The notes under the pieces are model-generated. The model searched no databases. It worked only from the letters and a program-made list of their open reading frames with translations, and was not told the origin of the DNA. This document shows positions 2,308 through 15,434 of a DNA stretch of 64,000 nucleotides, piece by piece. Source of the DNA: Coprococcus phoceensis (GTDB lineage Bacteria; Bacillota; Clostridia; Lachnospirales; Lachnospiraceae). The translations under genes were made by a program, and so were the position numbers. Each line of letters starts with the position of its first letter. Position 1 is the stretch's first letter. The stretch is taken from the NCBI RefSeq assembly GCF_900104635.1, contig NZ_FNWC01000007.1, forward strand, positions 496,001 through 560,000. Reading direction: 5' to 3'.

Positions 2308-2375
2308 CTTGTCAGAAAGTAAAGAGAATATGTTCGAAAGTTACTAGATAAATATGGTGAAGGAGGAGTCATATC

Positions 2376-4760
2376 ATGAATGAGAAACAAAGAGCAAGAA
2401 TAAATTTCATGAAAGAACGTGTTGTTAATACAATCCCAGAAATGGATCTAGAAAATGCAAGAATTCTGACGGAGAGTTTCAGGGAGACGGGTGGAGAGCC
2501 ATTGGCTATTCAGAAAGCAAAGTCTTTTCGCAGACAGTGCCAGGAGAAAACAATCAAGATATGGGATCAGGAGCTGATCGTAGGGTGTGCCGGAAGTAAG
2601 ATGCGAGGCGGTATTCTCAGTGCAGATACTTGCTGGTCTATCTTGGACAAAGAACTGGATACCATCAATGAAAGAAAATATGATCCTTTTATTTTAAAGC
2701 CGGAAGACAGACAGATGTTCTTGGATGTAGTAAAACCATTTTGGGAAGGGCGTTCCACTTATGAAGCATGGCTCAAACAGATTCCAGATGATGTACGCGC
2801 ATTAAGAGACAGTGGACAGATCTACATTGATAAGAAAGCTGTACGAGGCTGGGGCGAGACGACTGCCGGATACAAGCAGATTATTGATGAAGGTATTGAA
2901 AGTATCATGAATACAATCAAGGCAGAGCGAGAAGCGCTTGACCTGACAGACCCGGGAGCATTTGATAAAGATAATTATCTTCAGGCACTCCTGATTTCGG
3001 CAGAAGGCATCTGCATTATGGCTGAAAGATATGCGAAAGAAGCAGAACGTCTGGCAGAGCTGGAGAAAGACGAAGAAAGAAAAGCTGAATTATTAACGAT
3101 TGCTGAGACTTGCCATCATGTACCGAGATATCCGGCAAGGACATTTCAGGAGGCAATTCAGTCATTCTACTTCTATCATATTTCGATTTTTATGGAGCAG
3201 AATGCAGCAGCATATAATCCGGGAAGAATGGATCAGTATTTTTATCCATATTACAAAGTCGATATTGAAAGTGGAAGAATCACAGAGGATGAAGGACAGG
3301 AGCTTCTGGAGTGTCTGTGGGTGAAGTTCTCTGAACCATGTGTATTCCAGGATGCAACAACAGCAAGATATTCAGCAGGATATCCAATGTTCCAGACACT
3401 GTGCTGTGGTGGCATCGATGCAGAGGGCAGAGATGCAGTTAATGATATTTCTTATATGATGTTACAGGCTACACAGGATGTGCAGCTCTATCAGCCAAAC
3501 ATGTGTGTAAGATACAGTATGGCTAAGAATCCGACTAAGTTTTTGAAGAAGGTTGCAGAAGTTATCAGCCTGGGTACCGGATTCCCGGCATTCTATAATG
3601 ATGATGTGGGAATACGTATGTTGATGAATAAAGGTATTCCACTTAAGGAAGCATATGACTGGAATCCGGCAGGCTGTGTAGAGACAAATCTAGACGGAAG
3701 ACTGCGTCACTATTCCGCATTTGCAGATATTAATCTGGGCGGTATCATTGAGTTCGCATTGACGAATGGAGTGAACCGTAAGACAGGAAGAAAGGTAGCA
3801 ACAGAGACCGGAGATCCGACTACATTTGAGACATATGAGGATTTTGAAAATGCAGTAAAAGAGCAATTAAAGTATTCTGTACGTATCTGTGTAAAGGAAA
3901 GCCATATTATCGATGATATCTGCATGGATCGAATCGTTCCGGCACTTTCCTTATCCTTCCGCGAATGTGTGAAGAATGCCAAAGATTATGCGTGGGGCGG
4001 AGCGAAATACAACACCGGTAATGGTATCATTCTGATTGGTGTAGCGGATTTGATAAACAGTATGGAAGCAATCCGTGATCTGGTATATGACCGTAAGCTG
4101 GTCAGCATGGAAGATATGGTGAAAGCTCTTGATGCTGATTTTGAAGGATATGAAGAGATTCAGAAACTTTGTAAAGAAAGTCATAAATATGGCAATGATG
4201 ACGATGATGTAAATGATATTACTAGCCACATGCTTACATTTATTGCAGATGAAATTGAAAAATATCACAGTAAATTTGGACAGATGACACCTGGTATCTT
4301 ACCAGTATCCGGTAATACACCATTTGGACAGGACGTTGGAGCACTGCCATCAGGAAGAAAAGCATGGATGCCACTTGCAGATGGTATCAGTCCGAATGGA
4401 GGAACAGACGTAGAAGGACCGGCAGCGGTAATTAAGTCAGTTGCAAGTATTCCACATTCAAGATATACACAGGGAACATTGCTTAATATGAAACTGGAAC
4501 CGGATATGGTAAAGACTGAAAACGGTATTCGGCAGCTGATGGCACTGTTGAGAAGTTTGTGTACGTTGGATGTATATCATGTACAGTTCAACGTTATCGA
4601 TAAAGAGACACTTCTTGCAGCACAGAAAAAGCCGGAAAATTACAAAGGTCTGCTGGTGCGTGTAGCTGGATATACAGCATATTTTACGGAGCTTGGAAGA
4701 GAAGTGCAGGATGAGATTATTGCTAGAACCGCACAGAGCAACTTCTGTAGCACCTGTTAA
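2376..4760 (+). CDS. HypD-like glycyl radical enzyme, substrate unassigned
   Basis: A 794-residue glycyl radical enzyme of the dehydratase/lyase branch. The N-terminal PFL-like barrel ends with the thiyl-radical motif GCVE (Cys434, Glu436), and the C-terminal glycyl loop RVAGYTAYF places the radical glycine at 765, followed by QDEIIAR. These numbers match what I recall for C. difficile trans-4-hydroxyproline dehydratase (HypD), as does the operon (activase plus P5C-reductase-like gene). However, Asp278 of HypD falls in an Ala-Ala-Ala stretch (277-279, QNAAAYNPGR), the His160 region reads RGWGETTAGY, and Tyr450 is Ala. Ser333 and Phe339 may match HypD Ser334 and Phe340. It therefore looks like a relative with altered specificity, perhaps for a modified (for example N-methylated) hydroxyproline. 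The ribosome site AGGAGG is excellent. The family assignment is firm; the substrate is not. Confidence 0.93.
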   Translation: MNEKQRARINFMKERVVNTIPEMDLENARILTESFRETGGEPLAIQKAKSFRRQCQEKTIKIWDQELIVGCAGSKMRGGILSADTCWSILDKELDTINERKYDPFILKPEDRQMFLDVVKPFWEGRSTYEAWLKQIPDDVRALRDSGQIYIDKKAVRGWGETTAGYKQIIDEGIESIMNTIKAEREALDLTDPGAFDKDNYLQALLISAEGICIMAERYAKEAERLAELEKDEERKAELLTIAETCHHVPRYPARTFQEAIQSFYFYHISIFMEQNAAAYNPGRMDQYFYPYYKVDIESGRITEDEGQELLECLWVKFSEPCVFQDATTARYSAGYPMFQTLCCGGIDAEGRDAVNDISYMMLQATQDVQLYQPNMCVRYSMAKNPTKFLKKVAEVISLGTGFPAFYNDDVGIRMLMNKGIPLKEAYDWNPAGCVETNLDGRLRHYSAFADINLGGIIEFALTNGVNRKTGRKVATETGDPTTFETYEDFENAVKEQLKYSVRICVKESHIIDDICMDRIVPALSLSFRECVKNAKDYAWGGAKYNTGNGIILIGVADLINSMEAIRDLVYDRKLVSMEDMVKALDADFEGYEEIQKLCKESHKYGNDDDDVNDITSHMLTFIADEIEKYHSKFGQMTPGILPVSGNTPFGQDVGALPSGRKAWMPLADGISPNGGTDVEGPAAVIKSVASIPHSRYTQGTLLNMKLEPDMVKTENGIRQLMALLRSLCTLDVYHVQFNVIDKETLLAAQKKPENYKGLLVRVAGYTAYFTELGREVQDEIIARTAQSNFCSTC

Positions 4761-4772
4761 CAGGAGGTAATA

Positions 4773-5555
4773 ATGGAAAGACGGACAGGAAAGGTACTTC
4801 GGATAGAAAAAGCATCCATCCATGACGGAGATGGTCTTAGAACTGTCGTGTTCATGAAAGGTTGCCCACTCCGGTGTCAGTGGTGTTCGACACCGGAGTC
4901 GCAGTCCATAGAATGTATGATGGATTATGGATATGATGCAACACCGGAAAGTATTATGAAGATTATACGCAAGGATGAAGTTTTTTACTTTCATTCAGGT
5001 GGTGGTGTGACAATCAGTGGCGGAGAAGTGCTTCTGCAGTCGGATTTTGTCCGAGATATTCTGAAAGAATGCAGGGATGAAGGAATCAATACAGCGATTG
5101 AATCCAGTCTGTATGGACCATATGAGGCACTGGAGAAGATGCTTCCTTATCTAAACACGGTTTTTGTGGATTTCAAACTGGCCGATGAGCAACAGCATCT
5201 AAAATATACAGGTGCATCCAATAAAATCATCAAGGACAATATCCGTCGTATGGATGCGGAGTTTACAGGAGATATTCATGTGAGAATTCCGACAATTCCT
5301 ACAATTAATATGACAGAAGAAAACATGAGGCTTACGGCTGAATTTGTCAGACCATTGAAACAAGTCAGGGACATTGAATTGTTGCCATATCATAAGCTGG
5401 GAGTGGATACCTATAGAAAAATGGGGAAAAAGTATGAGCTTGAAGATATCCAGTCACCAAATCAGGAGCAGATGAGCAGCATAGCATCAAAGCTACAGGA
5501 ATATCAGCCAGGATGTGCAATTAAAATCAATGGAATCTATTATAGAAAAGTATGA
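4773..5555 (+). CDS. Glycyl radical enzyme activase (radical SAM)
   Basis: A 260-residue radical SAM protein that would install the glycyl radical on the enzyme encoded 12 nt upstream. The cluster motif is Cys31-X3-Cys35-X2-Cys38 (GCPLRCQWCSTPESQ). SAM-binding GGGVTISGGE follows at about residues 75-84. Unlike most dehydratase and lyase activases there is no ferredoxin-like insert with extra cysteine clusters after the CX3CX2C motif; the chain passes directly to DYGYDATPESIMKII, giving the compact size typical of PflA. The ribosome site (AGGAGG) and spacing show tight co-expression with the enzyme. An annotation as PflA would be wrong on context. Confidence 0.92.
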   Translation: MERRTGKVLRIEKASIHDGDGLRTVVFMKGCPLRCQWCSTPESQSIECMMDYGYDATPESIMKIIRKDEVFYFHSGGGVTISGGEVLLQSDFVRDILKECRDEGINTAIESSLYGPYEALEKMLPYLNTVFVDFKLADEQQHLKYTGASNKIIKDNIRRMDAEFTGDIHVRIPTIPTINMTEENMRLTAEFVRPLKQVRDIELLPYHKLGVDTYRKMGKKYELEDIQSPNQEQMSSIASKLQEYQPGCAIKINGIYYRKV

Positions 5556-7927: not shown

Positions 7928-7970
7928 TTTACTTTCACACATTAATAAATTATAATCAATGTGTGAAAGT
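7928..7970 (+). promoter_or_regulatory. Promoter and perfect 13-bp operator dyad of the AbiE operon
   Basis: A perfect inverted repeat (ACTTTCACACATT at 7931-7943, AATGTGTGAAAGT at 7958-7970) has its 14-nt spacer occupied by TATAAT (7951-7956). A -35-like TTTACT at 7928-7933 is 17 nt upstream and overlaps the left arm. AbiEi antitoxins are known to repress their own operon by binding inverted repeats upstream, which fits this layout exactly. Confidence 0.8.
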
Positions 7971-7982
7971 AAGGTGATGAAA

Positions 7983-8576
7983 ATGAATAAAAAAGAAAAG
8001 TTAGACAACATGCTATGTGAAAAGAATGGAGTTCTTCAAACTGCCGATGTGATTGAGGCAGGAATTTCAAAAACTTATTTTATGGAATATGCAAAGAAAA
8101 TGGAATTAGAATGTGTGGCAAAAGGAATTTACTTGTCGCCGGATGCATGGGAAGATCCTTTTTATTTATTACAAACGAGATATCCACAGATTATTTTTTC
8201 TCATGAAACTTCGCTTTATTTGTTAGGAATGGCAGAGCGAGAGCCGTTACAATTTACGGTTACTGTAAAAGCAGGATACCATGCAAAAAGTATGAAAGAG
8301 CAGAAGATAAAAGTATATCGTGTAAAAAGAGAACTTTTAGAGTTGGGAGTAGTAAATTTAGAATCACCAGAGGGACATCTTGTGAAAGCGTACAATGCGG
8401 AACGTACCGTGTGTGATTTATTACGCAGCCGCAGTAATGTAGAGATTCAGGATTTACAGTCAGCAATAAAGGAATACCTGCGAAGTAAAGAAAAAAATCT
8501 GCCGCAACTTATGCGATATGCAAAAGAGTTTCGTGTAGAAAAAATTTTGAGACCATATTTGGAGGTATTGTTATAA
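7983..8576 (+). CDS. abiEi: AbiEi-family antitoxin / transcriptional regulator
   Basis: A 197-residue type IV antitoxin. The N-terminal winged HTH begins KLDNMLCEKNGVLQTADVIEAGISKTYFMEY and continues to the family's GIYLSPDAWEDPFYLLQ strand. The C-terminal domain includes HLVKAYNAERTVCDLLR. The protein represses its own promoter and counteracts the AbiEii nucleotidyltransferase, usually without direct binding. The start at 7983 follows AAGGTGA; in-frame ATGs at 7959 and 7977 lie in the operator arm or too close to the ribosome site. Its TAA shares one base with the toxin ATG, showing translational coupling. Confidence 0.88.
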   Translation: MNKKEKLDNMLCEKNGVLQTADVIEAGISKTYFMEYAKKMELECVAKGIYLSPDAWEDPFYLLQTRYPQIIFSHETSLYLLGMAEREPLQFTVTVKAGYHAKSMKEQKIKVYRVKRELLELGVVNLESPEGHLVKAYNAERTVCDLLRSRSNVEIQDLQSAIKEYLRSKEKNLPQLMRYAKEFRVEKILRPYLEVLL

Positions 8577-9454
8577 TGATTAAAACTTCAAGACAGTTGA
8601 AAGCGTTAGTAAGAAATTTAACAAAAGGGGATAGCTTACAGGCACAGATTATTATGCGTAACTATGTGATGGAGCGTTTCTTAGAACGGATTTCTCTTTC
8701 AAAATATAGAAACAATTTTATTTTGAAAGGGGGAATGCTAGTATCTGCTATGGTAGGATTGGATACTCGTTCTACAATGGATATTGATACAACCATAAAG
8801 AATATGCCACTGTCCGTAGAAAATGCAAGGGAAATGATAGAAGAAATTATTGCGGTTCCCATTGATGATGGTATGACATTTTCTATAAAAAGTGTCGGTG
8901 AAATTATGGATGAGGCAGAATATACCGGAGTACGAGTGAATCTAGAGGCTACATTGGAAACAATGCGGACGCCATTAAAAGTAGATATTTCCACTGGAGA
9001 CATTATCACACCGAGAGAAGTATTGTATACGTTTAAGTTGATGTTTGAAGAACGTACTATATCTATTTTAGCCTATAATTTGGAAACAGTACTTGCAGAG
9101 AAAATGGAAACAGTAATAGCAAGAGGTGTAGCGAATACAAGATTGAGAGATTACTACGATCTGTATATTTTACAGAATGAATATACCCATGCGATTAGCA
9201 TGGAACAATTTAAGGCAGCGTTTTTAGCAACATGCAAAAAGCGTAATTCCATACAACTGATAGCTGAGGGTAATAAAATTTTAAAAGAACTCCTTTTGTA
9301 TAAACGTCTTGAAAAAGGCAGTTTTGTATGGCCAAGAAATGAATCTGAAGTACAGGAACTTACAGGACAACAATTCCGTTGGCTGATGGAAGGACTGACC
9401 ATTTCTCCCAAAAGAAAGGTCCAGGAGATTTCCATCCCGAAATATACCACATAA
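8576..9454 (+). CDS. abiEii: AbiEii nucleotidyltransferase toxin with IS66-derived C-terminus
   Basis: The first ~235 residues are an AbiEii/AbiGii nucleotidyltransferase: KGGMLVSAMVG then STMDIDTT (nucleotide-binding GG and metal-binding DxD), and LAEKMETVIARG with RLRDYYDLYIL in the helical part. AbiEii toxins stop growth by nucleotidyl transfer, by analogy to acceptor tRNA. From about residue 235 the sequence becomes LLYKRLEKGSF, WPRNESEV and QQFRWLMEGLTI, which is the C-terminus of an IS66 TnpB protein. The toxin has thus lost its own last ~50 residues and ends in transposase sequence. It may be inactive. Antitoxin and operator are intact. Confidence 0.8.
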   Translation: MIKTSRQLKALVRNLTKGDSLQAQIIMRNYVMERFLERISLSKYRNNFILKGGMLVSAMVGLDTRSTMDIDTTIKNMPLSVENAREMIEEIIAVPIDDGMTFSIKSVGEIMDEAEYTGVRVNLEATLETMRTPLKVDISTGDIITPREVLYTFKLMFEERTISILAYNLETVLAEKMETVIARGVANTRLRDYYDLYILQNEYTHAISMEQFKAAFLATCKKRNSIQLIAEGNKILKELLLYKRLEKGSFVWPRNESEVQELTGQQFRWLMEGLTISPKRKVQEISIPKYTT

Positions 9455-14303: not shown

Positions 14304-15434
14304 ATGTCGGGAAACTTTTTGTATTTTAATTACATAAAACCAGGTACGCGCTACTATGAATTGCCGGACAAAGTGGATGATCATACAGATTACATATTAG
14401 ATTTGCCTTCAGAAGATTGGGAAATAGTTGAATTCACTAACTGGAGATTTTATTCGAATTCTGCAATTAGAATGCAGGATCAGGGATGGAAAATACATAT
14501 TAGTGCAACAACTGAAACAGCAGAAGAAGTATTAAAGCGAGTAGGAGAAATACTCTTTAAAAAAAATATCGCATTTAAGCATATTGCGAATGAGGAATTT
14601 CTAAAACTCATGAATTCAAAACATGGAAATAGAGCTAGCGCGGGAAAATTCATGGCAATTTACCCAGATGATAATATATTTCCAATATTATTGGATGAGT
14701 TACATGAATGTCTAAAGGGGGTAGAAAAAGGGCCATATATTCTAAGTGATAGAGAGTGGAAGGACGGAAATGTATACTATCGATATGGCGGATTTAAGAG
14801 GATGGTTACAGAATCTGGTGAATTAGCAATAAAAGATAATACAGGAAAATTAGTTCCCGATAATAGGACACCATATTATAGAGTGCCAGATTTTGTTACG
14901 GAGCCAGAAATATTAAAAGTAGAATGTGAAGTAGAACGAACTGGAGAAAAAAAGCCATCCAAATTAAGTCAATATAAAATATCACGAGCATTGCGATTTA
15001 ATAATGGCGGAGGAATATATTTAGCAGAAAATAAAGACTCTAGGGAAACAGTTGTTATTAAAGAAGCAAGACCGAAAGTAGGGTATGATGGTAATGGGCA
15101 TGACGCAGAGCATAGACTTAATATTGAGCATACAATACTAGATAGACTTAAAGGTATAAATGGTATTGTAAAAGTAAAAGATTATTTTAAGGTGTGGGAA
15201 AACACTTTCCTAGTAGAAGAATTCGTAGAAGGAATAGATTTAACTCACTGGGTATCATCATCATATCCGTTTCATCAGGAACAAGACATTTGTAACTATT
15301 TGGAAAAAGTGAAGATAATAATAGATGAATTGATAAGGGTAGTACGTGATATGCATAATATGGGTGTGGGAATGGGAGACCTTCAACCTTCTAATATAAT
15401 TGTAAATACGAATTTGAATAACACAATTTTATAG
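14304..15434 (+). pseudogene. Truncated class III lanthipeptide synthetase (LanKC)
   Basis: The 376 residues match the N-terminal lyase-like region (FLYFNYIKPGTRYYELPD, SAGKFMAIYPDD, GPYILSDREW) and the protein-kinase domain (RALRFNNGGGIYLAE glycine loop, VVIKEARP lysine, GMGDLQPSNII catalytic loop) of LanKC enzymes. These phosphorylate, eliminate and cyclise Ser/Thr in precursor peptides. The protein stops just after the catalytic loop, before the kinase activation segment, and the C-terminal cyclase is absent; full-length homologues are ~850 residues. The left end of the mobilizable element lies ~40 nt further on. No precursor peptide gene is seen nearby. Ribosome site: GAAGGAGAG. Confidence 0.85.

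Follow-up and report, generated by a model that had tools for sequence, protein, structure and literature searches.

The stretch analysed here, hereafter the window, comprises 64,000 nucleotides of the Coprococcus phoceensis genome (assembly GCF_900104635.1, contig NZ_FNWC01000007.1, positions 496,001 to 560,000). It encodes a glycyl radical enzyme, followed by a radical SAM activating enzyme, a membrane transporter and a paralogue of the pyrroline-5-carboxylate (P5C) reductase ProC (Table 1). An earlier note made from the letters alone had described the enzyme as HypD-like with an altered substrate pocket. The pocket does differ from that of HypD, the trans-4-hydroxy-L-proline dehydratase; however, rather than a modified HypD, the gene most likely encodes a member of a separate and already known family, the N-methyl-4-hydroxyproline dehydratases, for which two structures have been solved.

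Table 1. Features of the cluster, in window coordinates (branch A is defined in the text)
Feature	Position	Strand	Evidence
Shine-Dalgarno AAGGAGGAG, 7 nt ahead of the enzyme ATG	2360..2368	+	direct sequence reading
Glycyl radical enzyme open reading frame, 794 amino acids, ATG start	2376..4760	+	most likely N-methyl-4-hydroxyproline dehydratase family, branch A; Cys434, Glu436, Gly765
Radical SAM activating enzyme, 260 amino acids, motif CPLRCQWC	4773..5555	+	TIGR02494, 252.5 bits (cut-off 174.35)
TauE/SafE (TSUP) family membrane transporter, 301 amino acids	5572..6477	+	Pfam PF01925, 70.1 bits; 81% identity in relative L104
ProC-like pyrroline-5-carboxylate reductase paralogue, 271 amino acids	6484..7299	+	TIGR00112, 215.6 bits (cut-off 196.75); Pfam P5CR_dimer

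The enzyme matches the Pfam families PF02901 (PFL-like, 657 bits) and PF01228 (Gly_radical, 109 bits), and the Cys loop, the glycyl radical motif and the adjoining activase of the glycyl radical superfamily are all present. The catalytic core is intact, as the earlier note had read it, with Cys434, Glu436 and Gly765 aligning to identically numbered residues of Clostridioides difficile HypD (6VXC). The activase scored 254.5 bits with the HypD activase model, below its cut-off of 425, and by motif count it has six Cys and lacks the ferredoxin-like [4Fe-4S] insert. In the 24 activases counted, two of them HypD activases, forms with and without this two-cluster insert were mixed within branches, and 11, the window's included, were without it. 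A promoter scan returned 14 sites against 18.3 expected from shuffled sequences and was given no weight.

Probable assignment to the N-methyl-4-hydroxyproline dehydratase family

The best matches in a sequence search of the PDB were 8ID1 (1216 bits), 8IOF (900) and CutC (9F3W, 636), with HypD lower down at 534; HplG (7VUA), a C-N cleaving glycyl radical enzyme acting on hydroxyproline according to its title, reached 354. The window enzyme is 65.0% identical to 8ID1, 49.4% to 8IOF and 36.1% to HypD. The two nearest entries, both released on 2024-03-27, are titled 'Crystal structure of N-Methyl-cis-4-hydroxy-L-proline dehydratase in Intestinibacter bartlettii' (8ID1) and 'Crystal structure of N-methyl-Cis-4-hydroxy-D-proline dehydratase in Clostridium sp. 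FS41' (8IOF). Their molecule names are misleading, since 8ID1 is filed as 'Formate C-acetyltransferase' and 8IOF as 'Benzylsuccinate synthase alpha subunit'. The earlier note had mentioned reports on radical enzymes acting on N-methyl-hydroxyprolines, and such a report does exist, as Jiang et al. (ACS Catal 2024, 14:4407), known by its title in a reference list, reportedly bears on this subject. From subject and release date, 8ID1 and 8IOF presumably belong to that study. Neither the open-access literature nor the PDB search yielded a test of a close relative of the window enzyme (branch A below), and the passages available from PMC12899673 and PMC11574389 contain nothing on N-methyl substrates.

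The window enzyme stayed below the curated NCBIfam cut-offs for HypD (NF043068, 665.8 against 1100), CutC (TIGR04394, 674.9 against 1050) and HpsG (NF048011, 632.8 against 1000), and membership of CutC and HpsG was rejected on this basis. Controls scored far higher, with 1554.9 bits for a HypD of the same genus (L118) with the HypD model and 1565.9 for an HpsG (L032) with the HpsG model. Among the 12 NCBIfam models that match the window enzyme, the sole one passed was the broad subfamily TIGR01774 (699.6 against 678.2). The four family members scanned (window, L104, L107 and L112) all failed to pass any matching equivalog model. Fold similarity was discarded as a discriminator, since 8ID1 and 8IOF come out level with 5i2a and 5fau.

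In a maximum-likelihood tree of 30 rows, the window enzyme and 12 others form branch A (support 92/96; one clade in 93% of 200 bootstrap trees), 8ID1 and five others form branch B (100/99), and 8IOF and four others form branch C (100/100). The three branches make up one clade (100/99), with HypD apart (100/100). The order of A, B and C is weak (80/59); here the long branches of C meet those of the outgroups, as flagged by a program warning. The tree omits L132, cut by a contig end, L111, which is broken, and further relatives found together with L030 and L031, nine of which were in an earlier tree. Model score, tree and the contact residues described below led us to reject HypD membership, and the enzyme lies outside the HypD clade.

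The searches also returned further glycyl radical enzymes, about 39% identical to the window's, that have CVV in place of CxE at the Cys loop (L115:8027-10408, L116:8127-10496 and L117:8714-11083). L115 and L117 fall below the cut-off of every matching NCBIfam equivalog model, and the nearest PDB match of L117 is CutC (731 bits).

Contact residues and the predicted substrate

Alignment to HypD 6VXC places Glu161, within WGETTAGY, at His160, and Ala278, within the Ala run of NAAAYNPGR, at Asp278; both replacements had been named in the earlier note, and neither original residue reappears in a shifted position. Trp277 falls in a gap. Two further changes, Asp339 to Met338 and Thr645 to Val644, were absent from the note's list. 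At Tyr450, the note was right that the position had changed, but the Ala it read there does not hold, since the loop is offset by one residue and the aligned residue is Asp451. Ser333 and Phe339, which it had thought possibly retained, do correspond to HypD Ser334 and Phe340, and Arg157 to Arg156. Two of seven HypD positions (Asp278, His160, Asp339, Ser334, Phe340, Tyr450 and Thr645) are thus kept, namely Ser334 and Phe340, and the other five residues are kept in neither 8ID1 nor 8IOF. The changes recur across the 24-sequence clade, which rules out chance as their explanation; branch C has variants of its own, Ala278 being replaced by Ser, Asp451 by Glu and Phe339 by Thr. Branches A and B have Asp451 without exception (19 sequences), and all five sequences of branch C have Glu there. 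Residue 333 varies within branch A, being Ser in the window and L104 and Ala in the other 11 of 13.

At 16 positions numbered as in HypD, the window enzyme and 8ID1 are alike except at 153 (Lys in the window, Arg in 8ID1), and they share Glu161, Ala278, Ser333, Met338, Phe339, Asp451 and Val644. The more distant 8IOF also has Glu161, Met338, Val644 and Ser333, but differs in having Ser at 278, Thr at the position of Phe339, Glu at 451 and Asn at 552. Given the titles of 8ID1 and 8IOF and the shared loss of five HypD residues, an N-methylated hydroxyproline is well supported as the substrate. The change of substrate suggested in the earlier note is thereby borne out, as the clade is not that of HypD and the nearest structures bear N-methyl titles. 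Among its examples, the N-methylated hydroxyproline agrees with those titles, and a betaine found no specific support.

According to excerpts of PMC7077986, the HypD mutants D278N, H160Q, E436Q, D339N, F340A and S334A lose activity, and D278N, H160Q and D339N are without dehydration activity. The residues altered in the latter three are all absent from the window enzyme. A divergent HypD still using trans-4-hydroxy-L-proline would fit the common fold, the retained equivalents of Ser334 and Phe340 and the nearby ProC, as in two HypD loci, but with these residues lost, a HypD-model score far below both the cut-off and the control, and a separate clade, we regard this explanation as extremely improbable.

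Within the family, branches A (13 rows) and B (6 rows) are fixed differently at five columns: 71 (Cys/Asn), 507 (Lys/Ala), 552 (Ile/Asp), 553 (Leu/Ala) and 780 (Glu/Asp). Accordingly, 8ID1 has Asp-Ala where the window has Ile552-Leu553; it also has Tyr at both positions where the window has Phe449 and Ile452, columns that hold Phe/Leu and Ile in branch A and Tyr and Tyr/Phe in branch B. Column 552, which is Gln in HypD, aligns with Glu637 of 4-hydroxyphenylacetate decarboxylase (HPAD, 2Y8N), and it is this alignment, not coordinates, that assigns residue 552 to the pocket. A paper on a related decarboxylase states, in the part available, that Glu637 is thought to deprotonate the substrate phenol (PMC9248008). 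The branch A pocket thus seems less polar than that of 8ID1, to judge from the aligned residues, although the probability that one of five fixed differences lies in the pocket by chance is not negligible. Since the window's branch differs from 8ID1 at this likely pocket position, we do not name a stereoisomer of the substrate.

Neighbouring genes and alternative readings

Neighbouring ProC and MttB genes were looked for with a small number of BLAST queries, which may overlook distant ones. The relative L104, 85% identical in the enzyme, has the identical four-gene order, with identities of 85, 72, 81 and 73%. A ProC-like gene lies closely behind the enzyme in three of the 13 branch A loci (window, L104 and L030); that of L030 is distant (240.2 against a cut-off of 254) and was missed by BLAST. 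In most other branch A loci, only the enzyme and the activase were found. An MttB-type gene lies within 3 kb of the enzyme in four of five branch B loci (L107, L109, L110 and L140, not L108) and in one of four branch C loci (L112, not L113, L142 or L143), counting loci other than those of 8ID1 and 8IOF. MttB relatives demethylate quaternary and tertiary amines, such as trimethylamine, carnitine and gamma-butyrobetaine, and the MttB genes beside branch B enzymes therefore fit a putative route from hydroxyproline betaine to N-methyl-hydroxyproline.

The sparse surroundings of most branch A enzymes would also agree with a different eliminase reaction on an unrelated substrate, for instance a small quaternary amine or hydroxyproline betaine, as would the fact that CutC is the top-scoring NCBIfam equivalog model. 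The CutC cut-off is nevertheless unmet, 8ID1 is far closer than CutC, and a ProC-like reductase follows the enzyme in the window and L104, so that we consider such a reaction very improbable.

L111, whose branch A enzyme gene is broken, and L108, of branch B, share a TRAP-transporter operon (DctP 83%, ProC-like protein 88% and DctM 91% identical). This common operon speaks for the same pathway, and for this reason we do not claim different substrates for branches A and B. The L111 gene (L111:8327-10709) is split into two reading frames, the first piece ending at residue 552, and the activase frame, as called, begins inside the radical SAM motif; the TRAP operon adjoins them.

Several observations weigh against the reading as an N-methyl-4-hydroxyproline dehydratase. 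None of the 13 branch A loci, several of which lie on short contigs, showed an MttB gene next to the enzyme, and the window genome yielded no match to PF06253 (MttB). The window ProC scores above the cut-off for P5C reductase, and it is closer to two HypD-linked ProCs (45-46% identity) than to four MttB-linked ones (30-33%). The AlphaFold model has predicted local distance difference test (pLDDT) scores below 50 at the active-site loops 152-161, 333-335 and 445-448, and the five columns fixed differently between branches A and B include one likely in the pocket (Ile552 against Asp). In alignment, the window ProC reads PGGIT and GSSPAM where the HypD-linked ProCs read PGGTT and GSSPAY, a difference common to it and L104.

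The missing MttB and the character of the ProC would also suit an unmethylated hydroxyproline isomer, such as cis-4-hydroxy-L-proline, that is dehydrated to pyrroline-5-carboxylate and reduced by ProC to proline, feeding D-proline reductase. The window genome has a D-proline reductase-like (prd-like) cluster with a 616-residue PrdA-like open reading frame, a section of which reached 666.6 bits against the PrdA model, whose cut-off of 700 is set for the whole protein, and a nearby gene that by eye resembles proline racemase. This genome has two PFL-like genes, and a search with the window protein recovers only the window's own gene at E 1e-50 or better, so that the genome appears to lack HypD, which likewise favours this explanation. 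On the other hand, the ring-NH-binding or catalytic HypD residues Asp278, His160 and Asp339 have each given way to the very residue that 8ID1 has, and the identity to an enzyme titled as an N-methyl-hydroxyproline dehydratase is 65%. We therefore judge an unmethylated substrate unlikely, and a dehydratase of N-methyl-4-hydroxyproline remains the preferred reading.

Distribution and proposed pathway

Among ten genomes of the genus, including the window's, six contain a gene that reaches E 1e-50, none besides the window's exceeding 38% identity. The matches from two of these relatives (L118 and L119) are HypD, with a ProC within 6 kb. The window genome encodes, in addition to the ProC of the cluster, a separate ProC of 264 amino acids and a third, shortened one of 206 (L146:9367-9987), which by eye is like the HypD-linked ProC of the genus relatives and is possibly the trace of a lost HypD locus. 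Wider searches scored at most two best first-look candidates per genome, which makes their counts lower bounds. At the family level, matches with E values of 1e-170 or lower occur in at least 19 of 397 genomes, and at least 11 matches, including the window's, reach 49% identity; E 1e-220 was passed in at least 4 of 392 genomes searched at order level and at least 10 of 391 at class level.

The cluster is flanked upstream by a phage-type integrase and a rolling-circle replication gene, and downstream by an AbiE-type pair and an IS66 transposase. These mobile-element neighbours and the patchy distribution fit acquisition of the cluster by transfer. The pair behind the cluster (7959-9454) consists of an AbiEi-like protein (21.3 bits, cut-off 26) and an AbiEii protein, the C-terminal part of which also matches IS66 Orf2. 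Farther along, a protein at 14304-15434 has a RamC_N domain and a kinase domain, a combination that we take to be as in lanthipeptide synthetases.

From these comparisons, the cluster probably dehydrates an N-methyl-4-hydroxyproline and then reduces the product. The TauE/SafE-family transporter, presumed to provide the uptake or export step, would move the substrate, and the radical SAM protein, judging by its family and motifs, would form the glycyl radical at Gly765. The subsequent steps are carried over from HypD, for which excerpts of PMC7077986 propose hydrogen abstraction at C5 and loss of the 4-hydroxyl. The radical would pass to Cys434 as a thiyl, which would take hydrogen from C5 beside the ring nitrogen; the 4-hydroxyl would leave as water, aided by Glu436 and probably Glu161, and the return of hydrogen to C4 would give N-methyl-pyrrolinium-5-carboxylate. 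The ProC-like protein is presumed to reduce this dehydration product, which would yield N-methylproline. Since Trp277 and Asp278, which contact the substrate beside the ring nitrogen in HypD, became a gap and Ala, there would be space for the methyl group. The base role may have been taken by Asp451 or Glu161, and since Asp451 introduces an acidic side chain at the carboxylate-binding position of HypD (Tyr450), the substrate may lie in a turned orientation.

More tentatively, and with the odds rather against it, branch A could represent a third stereo-specific class beside the 8ID1 and 8IOF types, one in which Ile552 has taken the place of a polar residue of the pocket, Asp or Asn, with no link to betaine demethylation and with uptake of a free derivative of hydroxyproline, for example N-methyl-trans-4-hydroxy-L-proline. 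The product could here feed the D-proline reductase pathway, replacing the HypD kept by at least two genus relatives. N-methyl-(2S,4R)-trans-4-hydroxy-L-proline has been reported from the plant Sideroxylon obtusifolium, according to the part of PMC7312019 available.

The difference at position 552 between the branches may bear on which isomer each of them uses. Read as a likely N-methyl-hydroxyproline enzyme, the window gene is connected with the way in which anaerobes degrade hydroxyproline derivatives.
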